Source: Lentisphaerota bacterium (GTDB lineage Bacteria > Verrucomicrobiota > Kiritimatiellia > RFP12 > UBA1067). From it: a DNA stretch of 32,545 nt. Below, piece after piece: positions 3,462 to 32,545 of this stretch. Position 1 is the first letter of the stretch. The number at the start of each line of letters is the position of its first letter. A program made the position numbers and the translations under genes. The notes beneath the pieces were generated by a model that saw nothing but the letters and a program-made list of their open reading frames with translations, was not told where the DNA came from and ran no database searches. Location of the stretch: contig SUVZ01000002.1 in NCBI GenBank assembly GCA_015061765.1, positions 1 to 32,545 on the forward strand. The letters are read 5' to 3'.

Positions 3462-5414
3462 ATGAGCCACTTTCCTCACATAAAGTATGCTGGTCTGTCC
3501 GATGTGGGCAGAAAGCGCAAGAACAATGAGGATTCCTATGGACTCTTCCCGGAGATAGGCGTATTCTGTGTTGCTGACGGAATGGGCGGCGGTGATGACG
3601 GCGAGGTTGCATCCGCCGCCACCGTTCGTGCCGTCGAGATGTTCGCCAAGGCCAATCCGCTTCCACCCAAGGCTGGATTTTCAAAGGATTCGATGGTTGC
3701 CGGACTACGCGGCGCGGTGAATTCCGCATCTTCCTGGATATTGAAGCGCGCTCAGGAGAAAGGTCTCAAAGGGTGCGGATCCACTTTTGTGGGCGTGTTG
3801 TTTGATCCGTGCTGTCCGGATACTGCCATCGCCCTGCATGCGGGAGACAGCAGACTGTATCGGGTTCGCGGACGCTCGATCCAGCAGATAACGAAAGACC
3901 ATTCTGCAGCGGAACTGATAGGTGCGAAGGATGAGAATGAGATTAATCCTATGTTCCGCGGCATGATTCTTCGTGCAGTCGGAATACAGAAGAGCGTTGA
4001 AGTGGACGCAACCCCGTTTCAGGTGAAGCAGGGCGACCGCATTATCATATGCAGTGACGGCTTGAGCAAGATGATCTCCGACAGGCAGATCGTGTCCATT
4101 GTCAAGGAATCCGATGCGGTTGAGACTGCGGTGAAAGCGCTTGTGGCGGCGGCGAATGAAGCAGGAGGATTCGACAACGTGACCGCAGTTGTGGTAGAGG
4201 TGGATAAAATGCCTCCGGCCTTGCCTGCGGTTGAGTTGGATGTGCCGAGGTTCGATGAGGTGGCGGATAATTCGGCTCATGCCGACAGAAACACTTTGGA
4301 CACAAGTTCCGAGACAGGGGTTTCCTTCGACCTTGGAACGGCAACCTCCTCCACAAACACTTCATGCCGCACCGAAGCCACCGGAGCTACAGAACAGACG
4401 GCAATCACCATTCCGGAGGATGATTCGGACAGTGCTGCGGATCCTGGAACGTTTGAGGCTGAGATTCCTGCGAATCCTGATAAAACGGCAGGTGAGGATT
4501 CGGCAAAGGAAGTAAATAAGAAATCCAAAAGCAATGTCGGGTTGTGGATTGCGGCAACCGCCATTGCCTTGGTCGCTGTTGCCGTTGCGGTGGCGATGAT
4601 TAGAAAACCGGCGGTTGTATCGGATTCGCCGGAATCAGTCGTGGGAAAGGCGGTTGAGACCAATTCGATTTATGAAGCCCGTAAGGCGGAGGAGCTTAGG
4701 CAGCAGAGGATAATGGAAGAGCGGAACCGTCAGGAGCGGGAGGCTGCTGAGCGGTTGGCGCGAGTTGAGGCAGAGGAGCGTCAAAGGAAGGAAAATGAAG
4801 CGAAATTGGCTGCTGAGCAGGAACGCCTTCGCAGGGAAGCGGAACTGAAGCGCGCAGAGGAGGAGCGCATTCGCCGTGAAAAGGAAACCGAGCGCGCGAA
4901 AGAGGAGTTAAGGCTTAAAGAAGAGGCGGCGCGTCGGCAGGCGGAACATGAGCGTATGCGCAGGGAAAAAGAAGCGGAACACAAGCGGGCGGAGGAAATA
5001 CGTATCCGCAGGGAGGCGGAACTCAGGAAGGCGGAGGAAGAGCGTAAACGGATGGAGGAGGAGCGTGTGCGAAGGGCGAAACTGGAAAAGGAAAGGGCTG
5101 AAAAGGAGAAGGCTCTGCTTGAACAGCTGACAAAAAAGAAGTCCGCAGCCTTGGCAGAGAGACGCCGTAAGGCTGCTTTTGAGGCTCTTCGTAGGGTATG
5201 CGAAGATAAGTCGGCAATCGCATTCGTGCGAAAGATAAAGGGAATTGCCGACACTGGATCCGTCAATGACATCTGCCGTATGTTTCGTCCGGTGTTGGCG
5301 GCGCACACAAAGGAGGAAATGGAGAAATCTGCCGTCGAATTGATCCGGGTCATGAAGCCTATTGTTGTGAAATTGACAGAGTGCGCGGAAATGTACAAAT
5401 CGGATGCCTTCTGA
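3462..5414 (+). CDS. Membrane-anchored PP2C-type Ser/Thr protein phosphatase with coiled-coil tail
   Basis: Dephosphorylates phospho-Ser/Thr proteins in the PPM/PP2C metal-dependent manner. The catalytic domain spans about residues 8-248 and retains the metal-binding aspartates: the NNED motif (D24), DGMGGG (D39), GDSR (about 128-131), SDGLS (about 198) and the final FDNVT (about 237). The usual His after DGMGG is Gly here, as in the paralogue at 30718. A Thr/Ser-rich linker (about 255-350) leads to one membrane segment (about 360-380). Beyond it, residues about 400-566 are almost entirely Arg/Lys/Glu/Ala, a long predicted coiled coil probably extracytoplasmic, ending in a short globular helical part. 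The start is supported by GAAGGG about 10 nt upstream. The dual-kinase gene lies shortly downstream, so the two probably form an opposing pair. Phosphatase assignment is firm; substrates are inferred to be the local FHA partners. Confidence 0.92.
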   Translation: MSHFPHIKYAGLSDVGRKRKNNEDSYGLFPEIGVFCVADGMGGGDDGEVASAATVRAVEMFAKANPLPPKAGFSKDSMVAGLRGAVNSASSWILKRAQEKGLKGCGSTFVGVLFDPCCPDTAIALHAGDSRLYRVRGRSIQQITKDHSAAELIGAKDENEINPMFRGMILRAVGIQKSVEVDATPFQVKQGDRIIICSDGLSKMISDRQIVSIVKESDAVETAVKALVAAANEAGGFDNVTAVVVEVDKMPPALPAVELDVPRFDEVADNSAHADRNTLDTSSETGVSFDLGTATSSTNTSCRTEATGATEQTAITIPEDDSDSAADPGTFEAEIPANPDKTAGEDSAKEVNKKSKSNVGLWIAATAIALVAVAVAVAMIRKPAVVSDSPESVVGKAVETNSIYEARKAEELRQQRIMEERNRQEREAAERLARVEAEERQRKENEAKLAAEQERLRREAELKRAEEERIRREKETERAKEELRLKEEAARRQAEHERMRREKEAEHKRAEEIRIRREAELRKAEEERKRMEEERVRRAKLEKERAEKEKALLEQLTKKKSAALAERRRKAAFEALRRVCEDKSAIAFVRKIKGIADTGSVNDICRMFRPVLAAHTKEEMEKSAVELIRVMKPIVVKLTECAEMYKSDAF

Positions 5415-5427
5415 ACTCAAGGATCCC

Positions 5428-5603: not shown

Positions 5604-8600
5604 ATGTCAGAGTTGAACGATAAGATAATCGGAGGATTCAGGGTACTCCAGGAGATTCAGGCGGGATCCGGCAGTCAGGGCACCGTGTACAAGGCTGTAT
5701 GCGAGGTCGACAAGTTCGGATTCGTGACGCCGGGTACGGTTGTGGCGCTCAAGGTGATGGCTGTGCAGGATGACGGGAAGCAGCAATGGAAAAAGCTCGA
5801 GAAACGTACTGCGGAACTCAGCCGTCTCAATCATCCCAATGTGGTTCGCTACTACGGATGTTTTTCGGAATCGGGATTGTTCAACGATGTCCATGTGGTC
5901 GTTCAGGAGTTTCTGGACGGCGAGACTCTGAAGGAACGCCTTGTCAAGTGCCGTTCAGGGTTAGATGTGGATTTGGGACTCAAAGTTGCCGATGCCGCCT
6001 TGGCGGGTTTGGAGTACATCTCCCGTTGCGGAATTGTCCATCGTGACGTCAAGCCGGGCAACATATTCGTCTGCGCAAACGGGGCCGTCAAACTTATCGA
6101 CTTCGAGATCGCCAAGCAGAGAGGCGGAACGACCACATCGACGGCCGGAAACATCCGCGGTTCGTTCGACTACATGGCGCCGGATTTCACCGACGCCGAG
6201 TTCCACGGTGACGAGAAGAGCGACGTGTTCTCCATGGGCGTGGTTGTTCATGAGATTCTCGTGGGCAAAACCCCGTATCAGCGTCTTGAAGGGGAAGGTA
6301 AACAGGCGAATTTCGCGTTCCTTTCGCGCTGGTCGCGCGCCTTGACCGAAGACAGCAGCCCCATCTACATCAGCTCGCGCGTGAAGAGACTCCTTGCGCA
6401 CGCGACTGAGATTCTGGAAAAAGCGCTTGCTCCGAAAAGAGAGGAAAGATATTCAGGCTTTTCTGAATTCCGCGAAGCGCTGAAGACGGTGAAGTTTCGC
6501 ACATTGCGCAACGGAAGCCGGTCGTATCAGGTTCTCCAGTTCATCGGCAAGGGCGGCTTTGGCGAAGTGTTCAAGGCACGTCTCAGGGGAACGGACCGCC
6601 TGGTGGCGGTAAAGCATCTCCTCAAGGCGGCCTATGCCGAGCGTTTCTATCGCGAGGCCAAGATAATGAAGAAGCTCAATGATCCGTGCTTTGTGCGGCT
6701 TGTTGACTTTTTCACCATGGATATAGGCGGCAGCAAGGAGGCTTTCCTGGTGATGGCCTTCCTTGACGGAATGCCCGGCAGTTCGCTCAGGGATGCGATA
6801 CGCGGTTCAAACGGCGCCGGGTTGGACGCACATGATGTGTTCACCGCGTTCGAACGCTATGCGCACGGTTTAGGCGTGATGCATGCATCCGGTATATTCC
6901 ACCGGGACATAAAGCCTTCAAACCTTTACTATCCGGCAGAAAGCGTCGGTCTGGCGGCGATCATGGATCTAGGGATCGCTCGTGACGTAAACGGCACCGC
7001 TACGCACGGGCAAGTTCCCGGAACCCTCGACTACATGCCTCCGGAGGTCGTACTCACCGACAATCGGGGTGATGGCGGAATGGACGTGTACGCGCTGGGT
7101 CTCTGCCTGTATGAAGCGCTTACCGGAAAGACCGCATACCCGCGGCTTCCTTCGGGGACGGCGTCTTATACCGCGTTTTTAGAACGTGCGAAAAACAAGT
7201 CGACGCCTGAATTTTCTCATGAGGCGGTGGCTTCGGATTCTGAGATTCTTGCACTGCTGAAGGAGATGACGGATCTTGATCCCGAAAGACGCATCAAGAA
7301 TGCCAACGAGGTGTCGATCCGCCTGAAGAAGATTCTCGACACCCGGTACGGTGGACCGAAGGTGCACAGTGCGGCTCCTGCCGAGGACGACGACTCTCCC
7401 GAAACCGTGGCGACGACCATCGCCATGGATCCCGCCACGGTGGCAACGCAGTGGGGCGGAGTGTCCGAGAAAGACATCAGGATCGAGCGTCGGCGTCATC
7501 TGCTGAAGCGTGTCGGCCTGCCTCTTGCGTTTGTGCTGCTGCTTGCCGTTCCGTCCGTCTATTACGGATGGAAGCCGGCAGTGGAATTCGCGTCGAGGTT
7601 TTCCAAGGATGCAACGGTCGTTCTCGGCTTCAGGAAGCAGATCGACTCCTGCATTCTTGCTGACGGGCTGCTGCATGAAGGAAACTATGCCGAGCTTGAC
7701 AAGGTCGAGATTCCGGTAAGCCGGTCTGTTCTATCATCACTCTCAGGCAATGTCACTGAACTGGGCAAGGCGATATCCTGCTCGATAAGGGCAAATCTCA
7801 AGGTGGAGCCTGCGTTGACGCGTAGAATCCGCCTCAACCGCGCCCGGCAGCTGCTCGGAAGCCGTTGGGCCTCTTTGGCGCTGCCGCCCGGCGAGGCTGC
7901 TCTGCTCAAGCGTGAGATAGCCAATGCCGAGAGCTGGTGCGTGAGCATCGTGAAGAATGCATGCGCAAACTCTATATGGGTGGATGGAACGGAAATCCCA
8001 GTCGGCGGCTCAAAGGTGATGGTTTACGAGGATGGACATCCCGAGAACGGAATCGTGTCGAGACCGGGCTTCAAGACTCTGCACCTTCCCAAAGATATAG
8101 ACGGAAAGGTTCACGAAGTTACGGATGAGGCGTTTGTGGCTAAGCCTGTTCGTTTTTCGCTGCCGACGTTCGCCGATGATGTGTTCTGCGAGTTGGAGGG
8201 GCGGCGCTGGAATTCCGGTGAAACGGTGGAGCTGATGCCCGGATACTACAAGTGCCGTTTCATGCGGGATACGTACAAGACGCAGGAAGTGACATTTTCA
8301 GTCTACGCAAACGCTGAGGTCAAGGTCCCTGAACCAAGGGAATGGGTGCATACGGACGAATTCATTGTGACCGAGCGGAAGAGGAAAGAAGCGGAGGCCA
8401 AGAAGCTGGCTGAGGAGAAGAAGCGCAGAGAGGCGGCCGAAAGGCAAAGGGCGGATGAGGAGAACCGCAAAGCGATAGCGGCCAGACAGAAGGCGGAAGA
8501 AGAAAGGCGCAAAGCGGAAGAGGTGAAACGTCTGGCGGAGGAGGCGAAAAGAAAAGCTCCCGTTGTTGTGACGCTACCGTCGCTGCCGCAGGATGTCGTG

Positions 8601-9203
8601 TGCAGAGTGGACGGCTCCGTCGCAGAACAGAGCATTTCGCTTGCGCCAGGCAGTCACCGGTGCGTGTATTCGCGCGAAGATTACGATGAGCAGTCGTTTG
8701 AATTCAAGGTATCGCCTGCCGCTGCAATGACGTTGCCTCCGCCGGGCGTGTGGAACGCCACGCCGGGACTGAAACGTCTCGAGGCCGCTGAGGCGGCCGC
8801 AAAGAGCGGTGACTGGATAAAGGCAGAAGCCGCGATTCAGTTTGCTGACGTCGTATCGGAGGTGAACCGTAGAAAGAAGCAGGCGATCGCGTCGAGGATC
8901 GCAAGCCAGTCGGAACTTTCCGAAAAGAGAGATCAGGCCGAATTGTATTTTGCCGAGGGTATGTATTACGATGCGGCGAAGTATTATTCCGAGGCCGCTG
9001 AAGCGGGTTATGCACTTACCCAGAAGGACCGAAAGAATTTCGAGAAGGCCTATGCCACGCAGAAGAAGCGTCTGCAGGTGATGATAGACAGGTGTCACAA
9101 GGATATCGCTTTGGGCAAATCTCCGATCCGTCCATTGGCTGATCTGGAGAAGGAGATGCGTCAGCTGATCGAGTGGAATACCAAGGTAAAGGGGCGCAGG
9201 TGA
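5604..9203 (+). CDS. Membrane protein with two tandem Ser/Thr protein-kinase domains and PEGA-like/helical extracytoplasmic region
   Basis: An eukaryotic-like (Hanks-type) protein kinase of 1199 residues. Kinase 1 (about 10-290) has a glycine loop near 20-31, the catalytic Lys (K50, in VALK) and HRDVKPGN near 146, but its DFG motif reads DFE and its APE reads APD. Kinase 2 (about 305-580) has GKGGFGEVFKA near 314, AVKH near 336, HRDIKPSN near 433, DLG near 455 and PPE, so it looks intact. A Thr-rich juxtamembrane linker (about 595-620) contains ETVATT and ATVATQ. A membrane span follows (about 636-657), then an outer region with two PEGA-like beta segments around a Lys/Glu/Arg coiled coil, and C-terminal helices resembling TPRs. 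The start has AGGG 6 nt upstream. It is flanked by a PP2C phosphatase and an FHA-sigma-54 activator, its probable counter-enzyme and target. Two catalytic domains in one chain are unusual, and kinase 1 may be impaired or regulatory. Confidence 0.93.
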   Translation: MSELNDKIIGGFRVLQEIQAGSGSQGTVYKAVCEVDKFGFVTPGTVVALKVMAVQDDGKQQWKKLEKRTAELSRLNHPNVVRYYGCFSESGLFNDVHVVVQEFLDGETLKERLVKCRSGLDVDLGLKVADAALAGLEYISRCGIVHRDVKPGNIFVCANGAVKLIDFEIAKQRGGTTTSTAGNIRGSFDYMAPDFTDAEFHGDEKSDVFSMGVVVHEILVGKTPYQRLEGEGKQANFAFLSRWSRALTEDSSPIYISSRVKRLLAHATEILEKALAPKREERYSGFSEFREALKTVKFRTLRNGSRSYQVLQFIGKGGFGEVFKARLRGTDRLVAVKHLLKAAYAERFYREAKIMKKLNDPCFVRLVDFFTMDIGGSKEAFLVMAFLDGMPGSSLRDAIRGSNGAGLDAHDVFTAFERYAHGLGVMHASGIFHRDIKPSNLYYPAESVGLAAIMDLGIARDVNGTATHGQVPGTLDYMPPEVVLTDNRGDGGMDVYALGLCLYEALTGKTAYPRLPSGTASYTAFLERAKNKSTPEFSHEAVASDSEILALLKEMTDLDPERRIKNANEVSIRLKKILDTRYGGPKVHSAAPAEDDDSPETVATTIAMDPATVATQWGGVSEKDIRIERRRHLLKRVGLPLAFVLLLAVPSVYYGWKPAVEFASRFSKDATVVLGFRKQIDSCILADGLLHEGNYAELDKVEIPVSRSVLSSLSGNVTELGKAISCSIRANLKVEPALTRRIRLNRARQLLGSRWASLALPPGEAALLKREIANAESWCVSIVKNACANSIWVDGTEIPVGGSKVMVYEDGHPENGIVSRPGFKTLHLPKDIDGKVHEVTDEAFVAKPVRFSLPTFADDVFCELEGRRWNSGETVELMPGYYKCRFMRDTYKTQEVTFSVYANAEVKVPEPREWVHTDEFIVTERKRKEAEAKKLAEEKKRREAAERQRADEENRKAIAARQKAEEERRKAEEVKRLAEEAKRKAPVVVTLPSLPQDVVCRVDGSVAEQSISLAPGSHRCVYSREDYDEQSFEFKVSPAAAMTLPPPGVWNATPGLKRLEAAEAAAKSGDWIKAEAAIQFADVVSEVNRRKKQAIASRIASQSELSEKRDQAELYFAEGMYYDAAKYYSEAAEAGYALTQKDRKNFEKAYATQKKRLQVMIDRCHKDIALGKSPIRPLADLEKEMRQLIEWNTKVKGRR

Positions 9204-9218: not shown

Positions 9219-10622
9219 ATGGGTGAATGGTTGGACAATGATTCGCATGCCGCTCTGATCGGCACTCTTCCGGACGGGCGAAATGTGAGTTTCGTGCTTA
9301 CCGGAGGTGTGGTGTCCGCCGGACGGCAGGGGGATATCCAGATTCCGCACAACAGTGTTTCGCGACAGCACGCTGTTTTTGAGTTTAGAGATGGAGAGTG
9401 GTGCGTCAGGGATGTCGGCAGCCGCAACGGCACGTACGTCAACAATGTGTCGGTGCAACGCGGCAGCCTGAAGACGGGTGATGTGATTCGTTTCGGCAAC
9501 GTGCGGCTCAAATTCTCCGTAAATGGCTGCGAAGATGATGCCGGGGCCGGAGAGGTGACGCGTACATTCGCATCCATGTCATCCACGGGCCTTTCTCATT
9601 GCGGCGGCGGGGTGTCGCTGGTAGGGCGCAGCGAACCGCTCAAGGCCGCCATGCGGCTTGCCGTCCGCGCGGCTAAGTCCGATGCCACGGTGCTGATCTG
9701 CGGCGAGTCCGGTACGGGCAAGGAACTGTTCGCCCGGCTCGTCTATGAGGAGAGCCGACGGCGCAAGAGCAAATATCTCGCCGTCAACTGCAGCGCCATT
9801 GAGCAGAATCTGCTGTCCAGTGCACTTTTCGGGCATGAGAAGGGTGCGTTCACCGGCGCCGACAGGCAGAAGAAAGGCCTCTTCGAGGAGGCGAACGGAG
9901 GAACCCTGTTCCTTGACGAAATCGGTGAACTGTCGCACGATATGCAGGTGAAGCTCCTGCGCGTCCTTCAGGAAGGGGAGTTTATGCGCGTTGGCGGCAT
10001 AGAGCCGATCAAGGTTGATGTGCGCGTAATCGCGGCTACGAACAGGAGCCTTCCCGAAGCGGTGAAAGAGGGTAGATTCCGCGAAGACCTTTACTATCGG
10101 CTCAATGTAATTCAGATAAATCTGCCGCCGCTCCGGGAGCGTCCCGGGGATGTAGGAGATCTTGTGCTGCACTTCACCGAGACGATCGGTGGATCCATGC
10201 GCGGGGTGTCGCAGGAGGCGATGAGGGCATTGTGCGCGTACAGTTGGCCGGGGAACATACGGCAACTCCGCAATATGATGGAGCGTACGATCATTCTCTC
10301 CGCCAATGATGAACTGCAGCTTGAAGATTTTCCGGACGAGATACGCAATTCAGTCGTCGGCGCAGTCCGCGAACCTTCTCCGGCCTCAGTTCCGGCTCCG
10401 CCAGCGCAGCAGGTGGCACATCCGTTCTCTCCATCTTCCCTTGCCGATTTCGAGACCGCCCACATCAGAGCCGTTCTTGAGGAGTGCGGGGGGAACAAGA
10501 AGCTTGCGGCGGAACGACTGGGGATAAGCCGTTCCACCCTGTATGAAAAACTCAAGGAGTGTGCGGCTGTCGGACACGCGACGGGCGGTGTGTGTCCGGA
10601 TTCCGGACAGACAGCCCCTTAA
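9219..10622 (+). CDS. Sigma-54-dependent transcriptional activator with N-terminal FHA domain
   Basis: A bacterial enhancer-binding protein that hydrolyses ATP to open sigma-54 RNA polymerase complexes. Residues about 15-95 form an FHA (phosphothreonine-binding) domain with the conserved SVSRQHA and GSRNGTYVN motifs, in place of the usual response-regulator receiver. The AAA+ domain follows (about 130-360): Walker A GESGTGKE at 162-169, the sigma-54 contact loop GAFTGA at 209-214 and Walker B TLFLDEIGE near 230. A proline-rich linker leads to a C-terminal Fis-type helix-turn-helix (about 407-447, NKKLAAERLGISRSTLYEKLKE without its last two residues in the core helices). AGGGAG 8 nt upstream supports the start. 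It sits between the kinase gene and a consensus sigma-54 promoter, so it probably activates the pilus genes when its FHA domain engages a phosphorylated partner. Domain assignment is very secure; the trigger is inferred. Confidence 0.95.
   Translation: MGEWLDNDSHAALIGTLPDGRNVSFVLTGGVVSAGRQGDIQIPHNSVSRQHAVFEFRDGEWCVRDVGSRNGTYVNNVSVQRGSLKTGDVIRFGNVRLKFSVNGCEDDAGAGEVTRTFASMSSTGLSHCGGGVSLVGRSEPLKAAMRLAVRAAKSDATVLICGESGTGKELFARLVYEESRRRKSKYLAVNCSAIEQNLLSSALFGHEKGAFTGADRQKKGLFEEANGGTLFLDEIGELSHDMQVKLLRVLQEGEFMRVGGIEPIKVDVRVIAATNRSLPEAVKEGRFREDLYYRLNVIQINLPPLRERPGDVGDLVLHFTETIGGSMRGVSQEAMRALCAYSWPGNIRQLRNMMERTIILSANDELQLEDFPDEIRNSVVGAVREPSPASVPAPPAQQVAHPFSPSSLADFETAHIRAVLEECGGNKKLAAERLGISRSTLYEKLKECAAVGHATGGVCPDSGQTAP
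10593..10609. promoter_or_regulatory. 17-bp perfect palindrome, candidate activator-binding site
   Basis: TGTCCGGATTCCGGACA is an 8-bp inverted repeat around a single T. It lies inside the 3' end of the activator gene, about 20 bp upstream of the -24 element of the sigma-54 promoter. A shorter related palindrome, TGTCGGACA, lies at 10568-10576. A role as an enhancer site for the activator is inferred. The distance is shorter than for many enhancers, and I found no clear copy near the second sigma-54 promoter. Confidence 0.4.
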
Positions 10623-10629: not shown

Positions 10630-10645
10630 TGGCACGCTTTTTGCA
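10630..10645 (+). promoter_or_regulatory. Sigma-54 (RpoN) -24/-12 promoter for the Tad assembly genes
   Basis: TGGCACG-CTTT-TTGCA matches the consensus TGGCACG-N4-TTGCW at every fixed position. GG is at 10631-10632 and GC at 10643-10644, with the required 12-nt register. Initiation would be expected near 10656, leaving about 14 nt of leader that contains AAAGGA (10659-10664) before the ATG at 10670. It directly follows the gene for an FHA-linked sigma-54 activator. Confidence 0.9.
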
Positions 10646-13112: not shown

Positions 13113-13133
13113 GCCCGGATATACAGGATGAAT

Positions 13134-13170
13134 GCTGGCCCCGTTCTGCTCGGGGCCGGCGGTTTTGGTT
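13134..13170 (+). terminator. GC-rich stem-loop between secretin and ATPase genes (attenuator-like)
   Basis: A 10-bp stem (13134-13143 with 13151-13160, one G-T wobble) with a 7-nt loop is followed by GGTTTTGGTT. It resembles an intrinsic terminator with a weak T tract, so partial read-through is expected. It lies just before the ATG at 13171 and may lower ATPase relative to secretin transcript. It also argues that the true start is downstream of the stem. Confidence 0.5.
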
Positions 13171-20840: not shown

Positions 20841-20974
20841 CAGGGAAGGATAGAGGCAAATGTCCAGCATTGCGGTCAGAGATGTGTGCGTTTCCCGGAC
20901 TGGTGTGTACGGGAATCGGTCATATGCCGCTTCTGGAGGGGCGAAAGACGCGTCAAATGACGGTAATATCAAGT

Positions 20975-20989: not shown

Positions 20990-21003
20990 CTATAGTAGAG
21001 CGT

Positions 21004-21357: not shown

Positions 21358-21687
21358 ATGAACAAGAAAATGCTCAAGAACTCCAAGGCCGGTCGCATCA
21401 TCTGCCGTCTTTTCGGCGAAGAAACCGGCGCCACGATGATGGAATACGTGATCCTCGCGGTAATGATCGCCGCAGCAGTCACAGCAGCCGCCATCTACTT
21501 CGGCAATGCTGCCAAGAACCAGATGAACGTCGCCGGCGATGCGATGGTTGGCAATACCGCGACGGCTGAACAGCGCGCCAAGTCCGCACAGGATATTCAT
21601 GACAAGGAAGCCACTGCCGCACATACCTCGGCCAACAAGTTCAAGAAGATGACTACCGAGGCATCGGAAGCCAAGGGTGGCAAGTAA
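21358..21687 (+). CDS. flp: Flp-family type IVb pilin (likely major pilin)
   Basis: The pilus subunit. The 109-residue prepilin has a positively charged leader (1-24), cleavage expected after G24 in EETG, then ATMMEY with Glu29 at mature +5, and a hydrophobic assembly helix (about 30-48, VILAVMIAAAVTAAAIYFG). The mature tail (about 50-109) is polar, Ala/Lys/Thr-rich and ends in GGK. AAGGAA lies 7 nt upstream of the ATG behind an unstructured A/C leader, consistent with high expression. Mature length of about 85 is somewhat longer than the roughly 50-60 residues common for Flp1 pilins. The prepilin peptidase gene follows directly. Confidence 0.88.
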   Translation: MNKKMLKNSKAGRIICRLFGEETGATMMEYVILAVMIAAAVTAAAIYFGNAAKNQMNVAGDAMVGNTATAEQRAKSAQDIHDKEATAAHTSANKFKKMTTEASEAKGGK

Positions 21688-24735: not shown

Positions 24736-25562
24736 TAGGGCGTAAAACAGATATGAGAAGCTCAAAGACAGGTTCGGTGCTGATGGAGTTCGTTATCGTA
24801 CTCCCGATTTACCTTATTTTGCTTGGCTTCGTATTCATGGTCGGTGAAATGTCCCTACACGGCGTCCATCTTGCTTCGTCTGGGGATCGTACGATTGCGG
24901 TTACTCAGGGTGGCGATGGATATTGGGACAGCGGCTGGAACCTTAATGCGGCCGAAAGCGAGATTGCAAATGCCATATCACCTTTTAGCAACCACGTAAA
25001 TCAGGTTCTCAATTACAGAGAAGAGGGCGTATATGCAAAGGTGTCGAATTTCAGACGTCAAGTTGCCGGACGTGTCGCTGACCCTAATTTCAACGGCCCA
25101 TGGTCATGGCTGGTCGCTTCCACTCTGAGGGATGAATACGCGCTTACCCCATGGACGCGGGGTATGATTAAGACTTGGGCGAACATGGAACGCATGGTCA
25201 AGATGACGGAGCCGCCGGAATCGCTCGGGCCGGATACGGTTCTTTCGAGGCTTTTCAGCGGCGTCGGAGTGGGGCGCATTTCGATGACGAGCAAGGATCT
25301 TGGCAGTGTGAATGCTTACGCCTACTATACGCTGATGCGCAACAATAAAGGACGCTCGTCGTACCGCAGCTGGGGACACGGGGCGATTGTCGATGCAGTC
25401 GCGAGTAGCGCAATCTGGAACCGGAAGGTGGCCAGCGAGGCGTTCGGTAGTGAAATCGATCCGGACGGAATGTCCGGCGAGGACAGAGGTGCGAACCCTG
25501 TCAGCAGCGGCAAACGAGAGGCTTATAAGCGACATCAACAATTTGTAGAATGGAGTGAATGA
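24732..25562 (+). CDS. TadE/TadF-like pseudopilin
   Basis: A second TadE/F-type protein of 276 residues. A short basic leader ends at G14, followed by SVLMEF (Glu19 at mature +5) and a hydrophobic helix (about 20-38, VIVLPIYLILLGFVFMVG). It then has VHLASSGDRTIAV, which resembles the small-residue helix extension of TadE. The remainder (about 50-276) is probably extracytoplasmic and contains several Trp residues. The TTG start overlaps the previous stop (TTGA), echoing the GTGA overlap upstream. An ATG at 24753 (MRSSKTG) is an equally plausible start and also retains the cleavage glycine. It could be the TadF equivalent. Confidence 0.78.
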   Translation: MIGRKTDMRSSKTGSVLMEFVIVLPIYLILLGFVFMVGEMSLHGVHLASSGDRTIAVTQGGDGYWDSGWNLNAAESEIANAISPFSNHVNQVLNYREEGVYAKVSNFRRQVAGRVADPNFNGPWSWLVASTLRDEYALTPWTRGMIKTWANMERMVKMTEPPESLGPDTVLSRLFSGVGVGRISMTSKDLGSVNAYAYYTLMRNNKGRSSYRSWGHGAIVDAVASSAIWNRKVASEAFGSEIDPDGMSGEDRGANPVSSGKREAYKRHQQFVEWSE

Positions 25563-25586
25563 TCCGCAATGAAAAGGAACAATGAA

Positions 25587-28500
25587 ATGAGAATAACAAA
25601 CAAACTGAAAGGCATGTTCAAACGCGTTGCGCTTGCAGCATGTTTTGTCTTTGCCGGGGCAGTTAACCTGTTCGCGGCCAATGTGGGATTCGTCGAACCG
25701 TACGACGACTGGCGTACTGCCATGCAGATCGCGGGCACGCATATTGCGGACTCGTACTATGAGCCTGTGTCGGTGTTCACCACGAACAGCGCGGTAGAGG
25801 TCTCTTTCGGATGGACGCGCAGCGACGGATCGTCCGCCTTGCCGCCGGTGAAGTTCTCGATTCTGGACGGAAGCGGCAAGATGCTTGCATCCTGGACGGA
25901 GCCTGGACGTGCAACCGGATCGACCACTGCGGGTTCGGCGAACGTTTGGTGGAGCGGAAACTGGAAATGTGATTTGATTCAATTTCTTGAACCGGGCGAC
26001 TATGCATTGACTGCGGAACTCGATCCGGCGAACACGCTCGGCGAGACGCTGGCTCAGCGTGCAGACAATTCGACCTTCTTCAGGTTTGCCGTCAAAGACG
26101 GTTCGTTCAATCCTTTGGATGTGGTGTCGGGATTCGCCTCTTCTTCGGTAACGGTGGTGGACGGCAATGACTTTGCCCAGGCGCCTCACCCGGCGTTTAA
26201 GGATTATCTCAACGGCGCAATCAGCATCGGCGATGCACCGATGATGCAGTTCGGTCCATATGTGCCGATGGACGGTAGGGTTGTTTCAAGCCGCAAAAAA
26301 CCGCTCGACCTGGTGCTTCTCATTGACGTCTCAGGCACGATGCAGGATTGCATAAACGGGCTGCTCAGGAATATCGAAACCTTCGTTGATCAGCTCATGA
26401 ACGGTGATGCGAACAATGAACCGATCCCTGATCTGCGTGTTAAAATCATTGGATATCACACCCCATATGCCTCTGAAGATTGGTTTATCGACAAGGGATT
26501 CACTTCCGATTGGAATACCCTGAAAAGCGATCTCCGCAATTTGTGGGCGACTCGTTGGAACGAGAGCGTGTTTGACGCTCTCCTGTATGTTGCCGAGGAA
26601 AAAGATACCGGATATGTATCTTGCGCCTCGCCTTTTAGAGCCAAGGAAGAGGCAACAAGGGCGGTTATACTTTTCACCGATGAGTTGCCGACAACAGGTA
26701 TTAATTTCGTTGCTCCGGGATGTTCAGGGAAAAACATACAGAACGTCATCGATGCGGTCGAGAATGCTGAAATCAATCTGACCGTAGTGGCCGAAACAGG
26801 CAGCAGGCTCAATGATTATGACCGTCTCGCAAATACCAACGCATATCCGACGGCGGCCAAGAATTCGGTTATGATCAGAACCTCAAACTTAAGCGGTTTT
26901 TCAAATGATGCTGATTCAATCCGAGCACTTGCGCAGATGGTGTCAAGTCAGGTCGCCACCGTTGTGGTGGAGCCTATGCTGAAGGTTGAGACAGAGGATT
27001 TCGGCACGCTGTCGTTCAAGTGGAAGAACGATTCCTCCGCCGGTACGAACAACATCTTCCGTTTTGACGGGTACAATCTCGGGAACAGGGCGAATGTCGT
27101 AACGAACGCCGTTCTTGACTCCGGGACCGGATGGAAGGAAGTGGAACTGACCGTGCTTGAGGACGGCCTCCATACGTTTGAATGGACCTACCGCAAGATC
27201 GGCTATGAGGGCGACATTGTAGATTGCGGCTTGATTACCGATCTTACCTGGGAGCCGTGGGCTACCCAGCTGAAGGTAACGCCTTCGCGCATGGAGTTCG
27301 AATACGAGGGCGGATGTTCGGAAACTGTCACAGTAAAGTGCAATACCAACTGGGTTGCCACTGTTAATGCTCCGTGGGTGCATCTTTCCGCGTTCGGCAA
27401 GGGCAACGGTACGTTTACCTACACAGTTGACGCAAATCCCTATCACAACTCACGGACTGCGACGATTACCGTAAAGGCGGGAGACAACGGTCGCCCCGAT
27501 GACGTGATTGTAACGAGGACTGTCACTGTATTCCAGAAGGAGTCGCCTTATGAAGAGAACGGAACGGTTCAGATTCTTGATGTCGGGTTGAAATCCCGCT
27601 GGCCGTGGAATGGGCTGGTCGATCTCGATTTCCGTGTGGTCACGCCGGCAAAGGATGTCCCTGTAACGATTTCGCTTGTCGGTTGGGACAGGGAAGGTGA
27701 AGAATTTGAATTTGACGAAACTACATACGCCAGCTCGTGCAGAAAAAATCCCAGATACGGGTATAATGACATTGTATACGAGAACAACGGCGGATGCAGA
27801 GGTGTTCAGATCGTTGAAAACGAAAAACATGACTGCGAGTTTATATGCCCCAGTTCCGGCGTTTACCGTATAACCTGGAACTTGAGCGAATGGGGTGATA
27901 TTGCCTATGGATCGGATGATCAGTACGTTGGCGATGTCAATGAACTGATGTGGCCGGAGGTCAATAATTTCCATACGCCGCGTTTTTGCGTGGTTGTCAA
28001 AGGGCGTTCAGAGTATAACGGAAGCGAGGAAAATGAAACCGTCTCCAACTGTGTGCGAGTTGATACACGGCAGAACAACAAATGCGGAGGATTGGTTGCG
28101 ACAGGTACAGAGAAGATCGGACATCCCGACGGCGCATTGGATCCGTTTGAATGGGATTCCATGTCTGTGGCAGATGGATTGATTACGGCCGGATCGCTGA
28201 TGCCTGAAGCCTATCGTACTGAAGGCATGACAAATGTGCTTTGCGTGCTTAACGATGTGTATGTGGAAGGCGGTATAATCTCCAATGATACGGTATGGAC
28301 TGCAGATCGCGTTCATCTTGTACGGGACAATGTGTTCATCAAAGAGGGTGCGACATTAACCATTGAAGACGGCGCGATAGTCAAATTCTGCAATCACACA
28401 TCGATATTCGCCAGATATATAGATCAGCCGAACGGCTGGAGCGTCATTGCCAAGGGCGCGTATATTTTGGATGCGTGCAATAGAGATGTCGGTGGCGACA

Positions 28501-30350
28501 CTCTGCATGGAAGCGGCGATGAAAGCCACAAGTTCGGTAAAGGATGGAACAGATTTTTTGATGAAACATTTCCTGCGACGGACAGCGATTTCCTTGCGAA
28601 TTACAACGGTATTTTCGGAATACCGTTATATGTGGTCGCTTCGGTCACGACAAATGATGCAGGGGAGGTGACGAGGGAGTTTGATCTTAAATGGGTGCGG
28701 TATTATACACGCGGCCAGCCTTATGGAAAGCTGCCGCGTCCTGTTTCTCCGGGCGAGCAGTTCTTTGGCTGGTTTTCTTTCGACGGAGATCTTTGGAACT
28801 CGTTGGATTCCGGCTGGTCTTACGCTGGTATCAAAGATAGCGTGATTCGTGAAGACGGTGTGCCGATGCCGACATACAGTGATAATCCTCCTAAGAGAAT
28901 AGACGCTTTGTCGGATATCCCCGATCCCGCAAAATACCCTGATAATTTCTGGCCCATGGGCAATGGCGGCGATGCGGTGATTGAACTTGCATATTCGCTG
29001 ACGAACTATACCGCGTCCGTCCACAAGCCACAGGTTGTTTCGGTCAAGGTGGGCGAGGCCGTGATACCTCCGGCGAACTATACTGTCGCGCATTCCGGCG
29101 GCAACTTCACTACTGTCGGTGTATATACCGTGTCGGTGAACTTCCTGTACGACTATACAAACACGGCGTATGCCACATACGCGGTATGTCCGACCAAGGC
29201 GGAGGATGCGACCGTCACTTTCGTTCCCGAGGAGTATATGTACAACGGATCAAAGTTTACGAAGCCTTCCGTAAGTGTGTATGCGGGCGGACGGTATCTC
29301 AGCGCCAATGAATACAGCATAGGATGGAGCGCCGGAGACTGGACCACTCCCGGAACCTATACGGCGACGGTCGAGCTTAAGGGAAATTATGAGGGTACGG
29401 TAACAAAGACGTTCGAGATAAAGGAAAATCCGGATCTCACGGTTGTGATGTACGATAATGATGCCAAAGCCGGTGCCCGTGTGGTTGAATTGCGCGGCGA
29501 GGGCTACTCTCCGCGTGTCCTCTACCTGAGCGGAAACGACGTTGCGGGCAACGATGGTGTCGCCACGCGCGGTATAATCAAGCTTCTCAAGGAGGATCTG
29601 GATGTGCGTAGCTTCGTGCTCACGAACTATGTGTGCCGGTACGACGACTATGCAAGCGTAGGCTCAAACCGCTGCGAGACGTCGTATGCGCCCGGTTTCG
29701 CAGGCAGGGCTCTTCCGTTCATGGGGGCTGTGGCTCCGGATACGGATAGGTGTCTGGCGCACACGAACGGGTATATGTCCGCCTCGGAGCTTCTGGACTT
29801 CCTGCGTCTCGCGGCGACGATTCCGGATGCGATGCTTCCCGCGCTTCCCGTCGGCGCTACGGATGCGGATGTCGTGGCGTTGATCGGCAAGATGTCCTGG
29901 GGCGACACGGAAGTCGCGGCGAAGATCACGACCGTAGCGGCGTACAACAGGTTCCGTGCTTGGTTCGAACGTCTGGATTCAGCCACGCAGGCTGCGGTCG
30001 AGGCGAGTAACCGTGCCTACATCTCCTCTGTTGTGAGTGAGATCCTTGCGGATGCGGTGCTGCTCGGCGACAGCGAGAAGGTGGATATTTCGATAACCGA
30101 CTTCGAGCTCGATTCTTCGACGGGTTCCTGCAGTGTGACCGTTGAGCTCAAGCTTGGCGGCACGGCGAAGCAGCTGAAGGCGGCCAAGGAGGCTTTTGCG
30201 GGCAAGGTCAGGCTGGGCGCTACGCTCAAGGGCATGTCGCCTGCTACAGAATCCGACATCGCGACGGCGACGCTTTCCGGCAACAGGGTGAAGCTCTCTG
30301 TGAAGATGCCGTCCGGGGAAAGCGGGTTTGTTACGATCAAGATCGACTGA
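25587..30350 (+). CDS. Large secreted VWA- and BACON-domain protein, putative pilus-associated adhesin
   Basis: A 1587-residue exported protein. A signal peptide spans about 1-30 (ALAACFVFAGAVNLFA). The first domain (about 30-200) is beta-rich. A von Willebrand A domain follows (about 240-450) with an intact MIDAS: DVSGT at 247-251 and FTDE near 363-366. A BACON domain lies at about 561-652 (LKVTPSRMEFEYEGG, CNTNWVATVNAPWVHLS, VTVFQKE). The central region (about 655-1120) is unknown, followed by two Ig-like repeats (about 1135-1280, GTYTATVELKGNYEGTV). The C-terminal region is helical, then a beta domain ending in VTIKID. I chose the ATG at 25587, with AAAAGGAA 7 nt upstream, over the one at 25569. 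Position after TadE/G genes suggests it supplies the VWA adhesin function usually fused within TadG (inference). Confidence 0.88.
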   Translation: MRITNKLKGMFKRVALAACFVFAGAVNLFAANVGFVEPYDDWRTAMQIAGTHIADSYYEPVSVFTTNSAVEVSFGWTRSDGSSALPPVKFSILDGSGKMLASWTEPGRATGSTTAGSANVWWSGNWKCDLIQFLEPGDYALTAELDPANTLGETLAQRADNSTFFRFAVKDGSFNPLDVVSGFASSSVTVVDGNDFAQAPHPAFKDYLNGAISIGDAPMMQFGPYVPMDGRVVSSRKKPLDLVLLIDVSGTMQDCINGLLRNIETFVDQLMNGDANNEPIPDLRVKIIGYHTPYASEDWFIDKGFTSDWNTLKSDLRNLWATRWNESVFDALLYVAEEKDTGYVSCASPFRAKEEATRAVILFTDELPTTGINFVAPGCSGKNIQNVIDAVENAEINLTVVAETGSRLNDYDRLANTNAYPTAAKNSVMIRTSNLSGFSNDADSIRALAQMVSSQVATVVVEPMLKVETEDFGTLSFKWKNDSSAGTNNIFRFDGYNLGNRANVVTNAVLDSGTGWKEVELTVLEDGLHTFEWTYRKIGYEGDIVDCGLITDLTWEPWATQLKVTPSRMEFEYEGGCSETVTVKCNTNWVATVNAPWVHLSAFGKGNGTFTYTVDANPYHNSRTATITVKAGDNGRPDDVIVTRTVTVFQKESPYEENGTVQILDVGLKSRWPWNGLVDLDFRVVTPAKDVPVTISLVGWDREGEEFEFDETTYASSCRKNPRYGYNDIVYENNGGCRGVQIVENEKHDCEFICPSSGVYRITWNLSEWGDIAYGSDDQYVGDVNELMWPEVNNFHTPRFCVVVKGRSEYNGSEENETVSNCVRVDTRQNNKCGGLVATGTEKIGHPDGALDPFEWDSMSVADGLITAGSLMPEAYRTEGMTNVLCVLNDVYVEGGIISNDTVWTADRVHLVRDNVFIKEGATLTIEDGAIVKFCNHTSIFARYIDQPNGWSVIAKGAYILDACNRDVGGDTLHGSGDESHKFGKGWNRFFDETFPATDSDFLANYNGIFGIPLYVVASVTTNDAGEVTREFDLKWVRYYTRGQPYGKLPRPVSPGEQFFGWFSFDGDLWNSLDSGWSYAGIKDSVIREDGVPMPTYSDNPPKRIDALSDIPDPAKYPDNFWPMGNGGDAVIELAYSLTNYTASVHKPQVVSVKVGEAVIPPANYTVAHSGGNFTTVGVYTVSVNFLYDYTNTAYATYAVCPTKAEDATVTFVPEEYMYNGSKFTKPSVSVYAGGRYLSANEYSIGWSAGDWTTPGTYTATVELKGNYEGTVTKTFEIKENPDLTVVMYDNDAKAGARVVELRGEGYSPRVLYLSGNDVAGNDGVATRGIIKLLKEDLDVRSFVLTNYVCRYDDYASVGSNRCETSYAPGFAGRALPFMGAVAPDTDRCLAHTNGYMSASELLDFLRLAATIPDAMLPALPVGATDADVVALIGKMSWGDTEVAAKITTVAAYNRFRAWFERLDSATQAAVEASNRAYISSVVSEILADAVLLGDSEKVDISITDFELDSSTGSCSVTVELKLGGTAKQLKAAKEAFAGKVRLGATLKGMSPATESDIATATLSGNRVKLSVKMPSGESGFVTIKID

Positions 30351-30721
30351 TGCCATTGAGATCCTCCATAGTTGCGTTTTTGGTTTTCGCCGCAGGCTTT
30401 GCCCTTGCGGCGGAACCGTTCCGCATACCCGTGGGGGCGGAGGTGACTTCCGGAGTCGCCGAGGCCGGCGGCTGGGCCGCGTCGGGGGTCGTCTATGCGC
30501 CGTATGTACAGGCGCGGGCGAGGCTCATTGCCGCTGCGGCAGCATCCGGCTGGCGGCTGTCGCATGAGATCCCTGTCGGAAAGCTGAACGGCAGAACTCT
30601 GCTTGCGTTCAGGCGTGGACAGGACGAACTGACATTGATGGTGGCGAGATCGGGCGTGGACAGAAGCGTGTTTTCATATGGACTGAGCCGCGCAGGGAAA
30701 AAGGAGAAGGCTTTCAGATGA
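30350..30721 (+). CDS. Small exported protein of unknown function
   Basis: A 123-residue protein with a signal peptide (about 1-21, IVAFLVFAAGFALAA). The mature part is about 100 residues with one amphipathic helix (VQARARLIAAAAASGWRLS) and beta-like segments (TLLAFRRGQDELTLMVARSG). I recognise no family. Its ATG overlaps the VWA gene stop by one base (TGATG), and its own TGA overlaps the ATG of the following PP2C gene (ATGA). It is therefore translated between the secreted adhesin and the second signalling module. It could be a periplasmic partner of the VWA protein or of the phosphatase's outer domain. Confidence 0.75.
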   Translation: MPLRSSIVAFLVFAAGFALAAEPFRIPVGAEVTSGVAEAGGWAASGVVYAPYVQARARLIAAAAASGWRLSHEIPVGKLNGRTLLAFRRGQDELTLMVARSGVDRSVFSYGLSRAGKKEKAFR

Positions 30722-32460
30722 AGCGTTTCGGACATCTGGTTTATGCGGTACGGAGTGAGATAGGACTCAAGCGCAAAAACAACGAGGATGCATACGGGGC
30801 TTATCCCTCGCACGGCATATGGTGCGTTGCGGACGGCATGGGCGGCGGCGACGACGGGGAGATCGCCTCGGCGGCGGTTGTTCAGGCGTTGGACGGCTTC
30901 TGCAGGGAATATCCGATGCCGTCCGAGGGCGCGTATTCGGCGTGGGAGATTTCCCGCGGAGTGTCGGCGGCGGTGAACTCGGCCTCCTCGTGGGTGTTCC
31001 GGCGGGCGCAGTCGCGCAGGCTCAAAGGGTGCGGTTCTACTTTTGCGGGTGTGGTGTTTGACGCGACGCGTCCGGCGGATGCGCTGGTGATGCATGCCGG
31101 CGACAGCCGCGTGTACCGGATCCGCGGCAAGGAGATCCGGCAGATCACGAAGGATCATTCTGCGGCCGAGTTGGTCGGGGTAAAGAAAGAGTCTGATCTG
31201 AATCCTATGTTCCGGGGGATGATTCTGCGGGCGGTGGGCATAGCGGAGAGCGTTGAGGTCGACATCACTCCGATGCAGGTGTGCGAAGGGGATGTCGTTC
31301 TCGTATGCAGCGACGGACTCTCCAGGATGATTCCCGATAAGAGGATACTGTCAATCGTCCGCGAAAACCGCAGCGACATGAATCTTGCCGCAGGAAAACT
31401 GATAGAGGCGGTGTATTCCGCCGGTGCGGTTGACAACGTGACGGCTGTTCTGATTTCCGTGCAGGATCTGCCTGCGGCGGAGAAGGAGCTTCCGTCTCCG
31501 ATCCCATCCGAAGACGTCGAAGATTGTTCAGAGGAACCCGCGACGCATGATACGTCGGCGGGGACGTCCTGCCGCGACACCGGCCTGACGGAGACGGTTC
31601 CGCTGTGTCCCGAAGCGGGGACGGAAGACGGTTGTTCCGCACGGCATGAAAACGATCGGGAAGCTTCGTTCGATGTGACACGGAATTTTGTGCGGATGTG
31701 CCGTCGCAATCCGCTGATGACGGTTATGACGGTTTGTCTGCTGTTCCTAGGATTCCTGTTTGCCGTGCTCGCGGTTTTTACGGTTGGACGGAAGGAAAAA
31801 GCGATCCCCACACCGGTTCATTCCATAACACAGGAGACGATGAGTGTCGTGTCGGAAAGCGAGGCTCATACAGCGCCTGAAAAGGAGGTGGCGCCGGTCG
31901 AACCCAAGGTCGAGCCTCGATCCGTTTCGCCCCGTGCGGAGTGGGTAAAGTCTGTTGTGCAAGCACCGGATGTCCTCGCGGAGCGAAGAAAGCGCGCGGA
32001 GGATTCTGTGGAGGAGCGCGAACGGAAAAAGCTGACCGACATGCTGAAGGCGGAGCGAGCCAAGATGCTTAAGGCAGAGGCTGCAGAGGCGGCGGTGGCG
32101 GTGCGTTGCCGTGAAGCGGAGGTCGCTTTGGGTGTACTCAGCCGGGACCGTGCCGTATTTCCGAAATTCATAGAGCATATGAAGGTGGCGGTCGGGTCCG
32201 CCGCATGCGGCAATGTCCGGATGTGTGGGCAGACGATCGCATCGATGAAGCCTGATGAAAACGGATTCTCCGGCGCCGCCTGCGATCTTGTGCGGGAGAT
32301 CCAGAAGTTTGACGTGTTGCTCAAGGGCGGAAAACACGGCAGAAGGATTCCTGTCGGAAAATTCAGAAAGCTTGCCGAACTGGATCCGACTTCAGGGGAG
32401 GCGTATGAACTTGCGGCCGAGATAATAAAATCCGTGGCAGGGGACAGGAGCCGCCGATGA
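30718..32460 (+). CDS. Second membrane-anchored PP2C-type Ser/Thr phosphatase
   Basis: A 580-residue paralogue of the phosphatase at 3462. The catalytic domain (about 5-250) has NNED, DGMGGGDDGE, GDSRVYR, SDGLSRMI and VDNVT, so all metal-binding aspartates are retained, again with Gly replacing the His after DGMGG. Close similarity to the left copy is visible in long stretches such as TKDHSAAEL and NPMFRGMILRAVGI. A Ser/Thr/Glu-rich linker leads to a membrane span (about 331-355), then a Pro/Glu region, a shorter coiled coil (about 420-475) and a C-terminal globular part. It overlaps the preceding exported-protein gene and the next kinase gene by 4 nt each (ATGA). It probably opposes the kinase that follows. 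Confidence 0.92.
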   Translation: MKRFGHLVYAVRSEIGLKRKNNEDAYGAYPSHGIWCVADGMGGGDDGEIASAAVVQALDGFCREYPMPSEGAYSAWEISRGVSAAVNSASSWVFRRAQSRRLKGCGSTFAGVVFDATRPADALVMHAGDSRVYRIRGKEIRQITKDHSAAELVGVKKESDLNPMFRGMILRAVGIAESVEVDITPMQVCEGDVVLVCSDGLSRMIPDKRILSIVRENRSDMNLAAGKLIEAVYSAGAVDNVTAVLISVQDLPAAEKELPSPIPSEDVEDCSEEPATHDTSAGTSCRDTGLTETVPLCPEAGTEDGCSARHENDREASFDVTRNFVRMCRRNPLMTVMTVCLLFLGFLFAVLAVFTVGRKEKAIPTPVHSITQETMSVVSESEAHTAPEKEVAPVEPKVEPRSVSPRAEWVKSVVQAPDVLAERRKRAEDSVEERERKKLTDMLKAERAKMLKAEAAEAAVAVRCREAEVALGVLSRDRAVFPKFIEHMKVAVGSAACGNVRMCGQTIASMKPDENGFSGAACDLVREIQKFDVLLKGGKHGRRIPVGKFRKLAELDPTSGEAYELAAEIIKSVAGDRSRR

Positions 32461-32545
32461 TTGACCTGAACGGAAAGAAGTTCGGCGGATTTCGGGTCAA
32501 GGGCGTTCTTGGCGGCGGCAATCAGGGCATGGTGTATTCCGCCGT
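32457..32545 (+). CDS. Start of a second Ser/Thr protein kinase gene (3' truncated by window edge)
   Basis: Only the first 29 codons are in the window. The ATG overlaps the PP2C stop as ATGA. The product begins MIDLNGKKFGGFRVKGVLGG and continues with GNQGMVYSA, which matches the start of the dual kinase at 5604 (KIIGGFRVLQEIQAGSGSQGTVYKA) and the glycine-rich nucleotide loop of Hanks-type kinases. So the right-hand phosphatase gene is also paired with a kinase. Whether it too carries two kinase domains cannot be seen. Confidence 0.8.
   Translation, partial: MIDLNGKKFGGFRVKGVLGGGNQGMVYSA

Follow-up and report, generated by a model that had tools for sequence, protein, structure and literature searches.

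In type VI secretion systems (T6SS), threonine phosphorylation is switched by PpkA, PppA and Fha, and a kinase, a PP2C phosphatase and an FHA protein are thereby tied to a surface machine. Closer to type IVc pili, the Kil predation apparatus of Myxococcus xanthus, characterized by a kil gene set in two clusters and by contact-dependent killing, is a Tad-like machine with an FHA-bearing ATPase (KilF) and several FHA proteins, for which a T6SS-like signalling cascade was proposed (PMC8460266). Class III CpaF motors (FHA-IDR-CpaF), which are mostly betaproteobacterial, combine an N-terminal FHA domain, a linker and a CpaF core, and the same account terms CpaF a single bifunctional motor (PMC12019362). 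Among type VII systems, T7SSd and T7SSe carry an FHA domain with an intact phosphothreonine site on the motor ATPase and encode a membrane kinase and a phosphatase in the locus (a PPM phosphatase in T7SSe), while T7SSg and T7SSh adjoin Tad genes; TshM of T7SSh is possibly kinase-like, and the passages on these two systems draw no link to an FHA-CpaF (PMC11217815). Moreover, the juxtamembrane domain of StkP bears several phosphothreonines and is a proposed interaction platform (PMC12077195). Here, we describe a locus that shares features with all of these systems, in a window of 32,545 nucleotides (the whole stretch of DNA analysed), and we consider it probable that it encodes a Tad (type IVc) pilus whose motor is gated by a dedicated Ser/Thr phospho-relay, plus an activator arm in the window's sublineage.

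Results

Positions 3462 to 32545 form a single co-directional run of Tad, kinase, PP2C and FHA genes (ORF list, Pfam), all on the + strand, and the genes from 3462 onward overlap or are separated by at most 72 bp, except for a 190 bp gap upstream of the kinase gene at 5604. Besides the majority of the Tad pilus genes, the run holds two PP2Cs, a kinase with two domains and the opening 29 codons of a putative further one. The first-pass annotation, which had described this packing and content, with five FHA domains on a transcription activator, the assembly ATPase and two membrane proteins next to TadB/TadC, was confirmed by Pfam, ORF and gap analysis. In addition to CpaF (see below), we found CpaB/RcpC (10670..11467; Pfam RcpC), the secretin CpaC/RcpA (11502..13112; Pfam Secretin), TadB (14832..15731) and TadC (15732..16616; both Pfam T2SSF), the Flp major pilin (21358..21687; Flp_Fap 1.8e-4, below the Pfam cut-off), the prepilin peptidase TadV (21717..22256; Peptidase_A24), and TadE-like (22223..23041; Pfam TadE) and TadG-like (23038..24735; Pfam Tad) pseudopilins. 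Two further pilins were recognized by other features: a second Flp-like prepilin (20860..21285) by its GS-ILMEY prepilin-like signature and a profile that cross-matches Flp ORFs, with its true start perhaps near 21004, and a TadE/F-like minor pilin (24732..25562), which has no Pfam match, by its prepilin-like N-terminus and a profile that cross-matches TadE ORFs. The Tad set had been called nearly complete, which holds for most genes; in the Pfam scan of 20 ORFs from this cut window, nothing matched TadZ/CpaE, RcpB or TadD, which are possibly encoded elsewhere. Downstream lie a 1593-aa protein with VWA and BACON domains (25569..30350; Pfam), a possible tip adhesin whose slot varies from 0.3 to 8.3 kb in 24 relatives, and a small, probably secreted protein (30350..30721), whose profile matches adjoin the module in 23/80 relative loci. 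The host group of the cluster consists of uncultured gut-type bacteria, and pattern searches of viral contigs for FHA-CpaF gave no match.

The two phosphatases, PP2C A (3462..5414; PP2C_2, 2.3e-10) and PP2C B (30718..32460; PP2C_2, 2.6e-10), are 51% identical over 320 aa, and each has one predicted transmembrane (TM) segment (about 362-380 and 336-354, respectively; TM scan). PP2C A has an N-terminal PP2C domain and a coiled C-terminus; the Asp motifs of both proteins were judged by eye. The kinase (5604..9203; Pkinase 4.3e-81 in two stretches) retains K, HRD and D in both domains (D as DFE and DLG), followed by a Thr-rich juxtamembrane linker (ETVATTIAMDPATVATQ), a TM segment at about 634-652 and a large C-terminal part, and had no match to PDB sequences at 1e-25. 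A putative further Ser/Thr kinase starts at 32457 and leaves the window at 32545, its identity being read solely from a 29-codon open frame with a glycine-rich loop.

The five FHA domains reside in four proteins, namely FHA-EBP, FHA-CpaF, M1 and M2 (two domains) (Pfam). FHA-CpaF (13132..14826; Pfam FHA and T2SSE; best PDB sequence match CpaF) has the class III architecture of N-terminal FHA, linker and CpaF core. M1 (16633..18543; Pfam FHA; AF2 pLDDT 78) and M2 (18519..20840; Pfam FHA, twice; AF2 pLDDT 90) contain a single hydrophobic segment apiece (TM scan), from which we infer an FHA domain, a disordered Thr-containing linker, a TM segment and an extracytoplasmic domain in M1, and two FHA domains, a TM segment and a helical domain in M2.

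In the relay that we favour, the kinases, membrane-bound here, would respond to a sensed signal by phosphorylating threonines both of their juxtamembrane tails and of the M1 linker. These phosphothreonines would form a docking platform below the pilus base that recruits the FHA domains of CpaF, M1 and M2, and this post-translational step would gate motor engagement on TadB/TadC until the PP2Cs reset the platform. In the window's sublineage, the FHA-sigma54 activator would read the same mark and turn on the cpaB and pilin promoters.

Phosphothreonine-binding FHA pockets carry Gly-Arg, Ser-x-x-His and Asn. All of these residues are present in FHA-EBP (window and two orthologs), and most are present in the first FHA domain of M2 (55 sequences). 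In the FHA domain of CpaF, the Arg that contacts the phosphate (66/68) and the Ser (67/68) are almost invariant; Asn is outside the three commonest residues at its position in both CpaF (68 sequences) and M1 (55), and Ser replaces Arg in 43/55 second FHA domains of M2. Several pockets are thus incomplete, which counts against phosphothreonine docking and favours the strongest rival explanation, that the FHA domains serve as structural adaptors independent of phosphorylation, like those of YscD in T3SS or EssC in T7SSb (PMC11217815), with the kinases and PP2Cs acting mainly elsewhere and the linkage reflecting shared inheritance. Weak YscD-type Pfam matches in the window ORFs also fit this rival. 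The best Foldseek matches of M1 and M2 include phosphothreonine-binding FHA proteins (e.g., GarA and OdhI), and the M1 list also includes YscD/PscD domains of T3SS. We regard the adaptor explanation as unlikely, though worth serious attention, given the near-invariant Arg and Ser of CpaF, the intact EBP pocket and the distribution of threonines described next.

Strict TxxT motifs occurred 31 times in tad-region kinase linkers against 1.3 expected (maximum of 500 shuffles, 6). A G005 gene that a region border cut in two stands twice in the linker list and recurs in the 'other' kinase group of the following comparison. Thr repeat arrays (strict TxxT) were detected in 14/23 module kinases (tad-linked, membrane) versus 0/20 control kinases (Fisher, 1e-5), with median linker lengths of 114 and 54 aa, respectively; any acid-Thr-hydrophobic site was absent from seven of the module kinases and present in three of the controls. 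The module kinases were hand-picked from the maps, leaving out TM-less kinases (e.g., G039, L167 and L179), which have no juxtamembrane linker. The controls were kinases of 20 stretches from nine genomes (G009, G010, G012, G013, G016, G018, G020, G023 and G038) among the best 150 kinase matches, after one TM-less frame was dropped. In the M1 linkers (n = 54), the acid-Thr-hydrophobic motif was found 96 times (38.6 expected) and its Ser equivalent 18 times (33.4 expected). Strict TxxT was at background in the FHA-CpaF linker (0 vs 0.2 expected) and in the PP2C tails (1 vs 0.7). These Thr-specific repeats are candidate FHA docking sites, and in the favoured relay they would be phosphorylated. 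The idea that the motifs of kinase and M1 match each other genome by genome was rejected, as likeness within genomes was not above that between genomes (p = 0.098).

Nine further loci, from eight genomes beyond the 40 surveyed below, bear on both readings. Four of them (G059, G107, G142 and G081:C6) are apparently the same as L051, L060, L045 and L064 of the relative locus set, and a ninth additional genome (G110), a fragment, was left out of the mapping. The kinase is retained in 9/9, which argues against the adaptor explanation; it lacks both a TM segment and a Thr array in 9/9, and we therefore moved some weight, slightly, from the phospho-relay to that rival. PP2C was present in only 3/9.

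FHA-EBP (9219..10622; Pfam FHA, Sigma54_activat and HTH_8) is followed, 40 bp before cpaB, by TGGCACGCTTTTTGCA (10630..10645, +), which matches the -24/-12 consensus of sigma-54 promoters without mismatch. An EBP with AAA+ and HTH domains thus adjoins a -24/-12 promoter sequence, as in an EBP regulon. Among 66 relative loci, a perfect site between the activator and cpaB occurred only in L006 and L011, likewise 40 bp before cpaB; these are the only two of 80 relative loci with a linked FHA-EBP. Across L001-L073 (1.21 Mb) we found five perfect sites: three in L006 and L011, and one apiece in L002 and L024, distant from cpaB. A second sigma-54-like site (20975..20990, +; two mismatches) precedes the pilin genes, just 5' of the possible prepilin start near 21004; alone it is not above chance, and its counterparts have one mismatch in L006 and none in L011. 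Over the whole window, the pattern with at most two mismatches was not enriched (11 vs 8.05 expected; 21/100 shuffles reach 11), so we give weight only to the perfect site and to what accompanies it. The co-occurrence of these promoter-like sequences with the FHA activator backs the transcriptional switch of the first-pass annotation, with candidate promoters in the window and two relatives rather than as a general rule.

It is improbable that control is transcriptional only, with the kinases acting on FHA-EBP to turn on the tad genes and the remaining FHA domains being secondary. The perfect site beside FHA-EBP, the weaker ones before the pilins and the intact EBP pocket would fit this explanation, as would FHA-EBP-like proteins elsewhere in at least 4/40 genomes (G006, G019, G022 and G030; rows aligned from residue 29-31). 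However, FHA-EBP orthologs adjoin cpaB in only 2/40 genomes, the other activators being unlinked, and a linked FHA-EBP was rejected as a general feature. In contrast, FHA-CpaF, M1 and M2 are general: FHA-CpaF was found in 68/71 Kiritimatiellota/Lentisphaerota-type loci (the remaining three end at contig edges within the gene), and M1 and M2 orthologs in 60/80 and 55/80 relative loci, respectively. On the locus maps, extra '2FHA' entries were taken as M2 pieces split at region borders.

We further surveyed 40 related genomes, selected non-randomly from 71 loci, mainly on contig size, of which 30 were mapped. PP2C genes lay within 18 kb of FHA-CpaF in 24/67 cases, against about 0.8 expected, and a PP2C was linked to FHA-CpaF or CpaF2 in 28/40 genomes; contig breaks account for some of the 12 without one. 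The kinase was present in 21/30 mapped loci (counted by hand from the maps) versus 3.6 expected and missing from nine. A chance neighbourhood is conceivable in genomes rich in such genes (457 kinase matches in the 40, 4 to 24 per genome); these counts and the recurrent order beside CpaF2 contradict chance clustering, and we give that explanation hardly any credence. Co-occurrence of kinase and PP2C with the FHA-CpaF run is therefore conserved beside tad genes, in support of the dedicated phospho-signalling module that had been read from this single locus, and its recurrence in many relatives hints at control of both the pilus motor and the pilus genes by phosphorylation. Assignment of the kinase to an anti-phage system is likewise highly improbable: the kinase domains match PD-T4-6, mad6 and other PADLOC models, but in a scan covering kinases and PP2Cs the matches were confined to kinase domains and neither PP2C matched, the neighbouring genes belong to Tad, FHA and surface-protein Pfam families, and tad-linked kinases recur in relatives.

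CpaF2 is a second CpaF-type motor without FHA, outside the window, encoded with the kinase and phosphatase in relatives. The gene order of kinase and PP2C beside it recurs in mapped and further loci; CpaF2 was not seen in G081:C6. An assignment as PilT was rejected, as its nearest solved structures are CpaF and pilT_fam was far under cut-off. Tentatively, the pilus may have two motors and a phosphothreonine clutch, in which phosphorylated M1 and kinase tails would hold FHA-CpaF at the base for extension, and the ancient CpaF2 would take over for retraction once the mark is removed. If true, this would depart from the published picture of Tad pili, in which a single motor is bifunctional.

Discussion

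How Tad pili switch on, and how one machine performs extension and retraction, are the questions on which this locus bears. Its recurrent components (an FHA-tagged motor together with an untagged second one, a kinase, candidate docking repeats and, in many cases, a phosphatase) supply concrete partners and peptides that can be tested.

No description of the whole combination came up in searches of open-licence literature, and the separate parts have precedents in class III CpaF, Kil, T6SS and T7SSd/e. The class III account names the architecture, and its FHA and phosphorylation passages mention neither a docking array nor a regulatory kinase or phosphatase (PMC12019362). For Kil, 'kinase', 'phosphat' and 'PP2C' have no occurrences in the main text (PMC8460266), whereas the window locus has a kinase and PP2C linked to the pilus genes. 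T7SSd and T7SSe differ in their FtsK-type ATPase and in belonging to Gram-positives (PMC11217815). Streptococci, in which StkP acts, lack FHA domains (PMC12077195), whereas the present locus encodes FHA proteins alongside, and its motifs are often tandem repeats. The T6SS switch serves another machine; the first-pass analogy to PpkA/PppA/Fha extends to the way of working only, with T6SS families absent from the Pfam results of 20 ORFs. New, and beyond that first reading, are the perfect sigma-54-type promoter sequence with its FHA activator, the Thr repeats in kinase tails and M1 linkers, and, outside the window, the second motor CpaF2 travelling with kinase and phosphatase. Such a recurrent locus would point to FHA-kinase control as a plug-in common to unrelated surface machines.

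Gene content of the run

The first-pass annotation described a Tad pilus locus wired to a Ser/Thr phospho-signalling circuit, and its observation is right: ORF listing and Pfam place both gene sets in one run on the + strand, from 3462 to the window end. The run comprises PP2C A (3462-5414), a two-domain kinase (5604-9203), an FHA-sigma54 activator (FHA-EBP, 9219-10622), CpaB (10670-11467), a secretin, FHA-CpaF (13132-14826), TadB, TadC, the membrane proteins M1 (one FHA domain, 16633-18543) and M2 (two FHA domains, 18519-20840), two pilins, a prepilin peptidase, and TadE-, TadG- and TadE/F-like proteins. Its 3' part holds a VWA/BACON protein of 1593 aa, a small, probably secreted protein, PP2C B (30718-32460) and 29 codons of a further kinase (32457-32545). 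Pfam results for the window ORFs included no TadZ, RcpB or TadD. Both kinase domains carry the catalytic Lys, HRD and DFG-position Asp (as DFE and DLG), the Asp motifs are present in both PP2Cs as judged by eye from the sequences, and the kinase, both PP2Cs, M1 and M2 have one hydrophobic segment apiece. The VWA/BACON protein (25569-30350), whose slot varies from 0.3 to 8.3 kb across 24 relatives, may be a tip adhesin that can be exchanged. Upstream of PP2C A, and ending 23 bp short of it, lies a repeat-rich protein of surface type (1145 aa, 2-3439) whose filamentous-haemagglutinin-like Pfam match is weak and sub-threshold; similar proteins are encoded directly upstream of cpaB in three relative loci (L010, L017, L025).

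Conservation of the linkage to tad genes

FHA-CpaF has at least 7999 relatives; among the 120 listed, the two bearing organism names are both Kiritimatiellae. Scanning genome contigs yielded 80 loci, of which 71 were counted as Kiritimatiellota/Lentisphaerota-type by name or gene content, the others being six Chloroflexota, two Enterobacterales and one 'Bacterium'. FHA-CpaF was present in 68 of the 71, and the remaining three start inside the gene. M1 occurred in 60/80 loci and M2 in 55/80, many loci being short; M2 was found in 17 of 115 sampled genomes of the phylum. Three Chloroflexota tad loci (L071, L072, L075) encode an FHA-less CpaF and a separate FHA protein of ~680-720 aa directly before cpaB, and in L015, L020 and L022 a divergently oriented gene for an FHA and kinase fusion protein is the nearest labelled gene upstream of cpaB.

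Linkage of the kinase/PP2C/FHA genes to tad genes is conserved in other genomes, with PP2C and kinase counts above expectation. In 40 genomes picked from the 71 loci, we found 67 PP2C_2 matches (1 to 4 per genome), and FHA-CpaF lay no more than 18 kb from 24 of them, where 0.8 would be expected. A PP2C was linked to FHA-CpaF or CpaF2, a second, FHA-less CpaF-type ATPase, in 28/40 genomes; the other 12 had no linked PP2C, in some of these because of contig breaks. Kinase matches numbered 457, and 21 of 30 mapped loci had a kinase (3.6 expected). Nine loci from eight further genomes (L181-L196) showed a kinase beside tad genes in 9/9, CpaF2 in 8/9 and a PP2C in 3/9; this tad-linked module kinase had no TM in any of the nine, was often divergent from the FHA genes, and kept its position next to CpaF2 in 8/9. 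At L085 (G006:C126:19611-26831), a PP2C and, after it, a single 2407-aa open frame encoding four kinase domains stand next to the tad genes.

CpaF2 was found in 39/40 genomes (open frames mostly 344-460 aa), on the FHA-CpaF contig within 40 kb in 26, often between PP2C and kinase or directly after the kinase; its expected position here lies beyond the window end. In a FastTree analysis of 63 sequences, 18 CpaF2 and one L073 sequence, taken as its CpaF2, formed one clade (support 1.0), and the closest solved relative is CpaF. On the boldest reading, CpaF2 would be a dedicated retraction motor. Another 27 entries in these genomes were a more distant CpaF at a separate locus, mostly with FHA-sized frames and ~45-57% identity.

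FHA domains, candidate docking sites and transcription

The FHA-EBP pocket is canonical in the window and two orthologs. In CpaF FHA domains, Arg is conserved in 66/68, Ser in 67/68 and His in 68/68, with Ala, Gly and Thr commonest at the Asn position. M1 retains Arg in 47/55, Ser in 38/55 and His in 55/55, Asn not being among the commonest residues at its position. The first M2 domain has Arg in 51/55, Ser in 38/55 and Asn in 45/55; the second has Ser in 54/55 and Asn in 53/55, Arg being replaced by Ser in 43/55. Predicted models of M2 (pLDDT 90) and M1 (pLDDT 78) consist of FHA, linker, a long TM-bearing helix and a domain at the C-terminus. For each model, the 50 Foldseek matches listed were FHA or FHA-like domains (e.g., GarA, OdhI; for M1 also T3SS YscD/PscD), and none matched the C-terminal domains. 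The best solved sequence match of M2 is an Rv1747 FHA.

Sequence patterns suggest that Thr repeats in kinase tails and M1 linkers are candidate docking sites, those of the window being ETVATTIAMDPATVATQ (kinase) and TMATRFSGGETVATVAG (M1). Membrane-proximal kinase tails carry repeats such as ETALTIDQIP (G010), TLPTQA (G038), VTLQT (G017) and VTMPT (G018, G020). Strict TxxT occurred 31 times in 25 kinase linkers versus 1.3 in shuffles (maximum 6 over 500), and in 14/23 module kinases versus 0/20 other kinases, whose linkers are shorter. The 54 M1 linkers held 96 acid-Thr-hydrophobic sites (38.6 expected) and fewer Ser equivalents than expected (18 versus 33.4); 40 had T[RQ]xA[ST] ahead of the membrane (TRIGS in the window). 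Three results count against docking: the FHA-CpaF linker has no strict TxxT, kinase and M1 motifs do not match significantly within one genome (p 0.098), and the nine further loci, with their TM-less kinases, have no kinase arrays. KTVIP/KTAIP repeats persist in three M1 linkers of those loci (G065, G081:C32, G087).

Directly after the FHA-EBP gene and 40 bp upstream of cpaB, TGGCACGCTTTTTGCA (10630-10645) shows 0 mismatches to the sigma-54 consensus, and we take it to be a candidate sigma-54-type site. Among 66 relative loci with enough upstream DNA, only L006 and L011 had a site with one mismatch or none ahead of cpaB, in both cases perfect and again at 40 bp; these are the only relative loci with FHA-EBP. 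Sites ahead of pilin genes in the window, L006 and L011 have 2, 1 and 0 mismatches, the window's alone not being above chance. At least four genomes encode an FHA-EBP-like protein elsewhere, and unlinked control is therefore possible there.

Comparison with known systems

Together, these findings support the hypothesis of a phospho-signalling mechanism for the Tad pilus. Among the titles and abstract openings listed from an open-licence library, which excludes most subscription journals and all preprints, none described a Tad locus that carries a kinase/PP2C/FHA module. The nearest known systems are class III CpaF (PMC12019362), Kil (PMC8460266), T7SS variants (PMC11217815) and StkP (PMC12077195).
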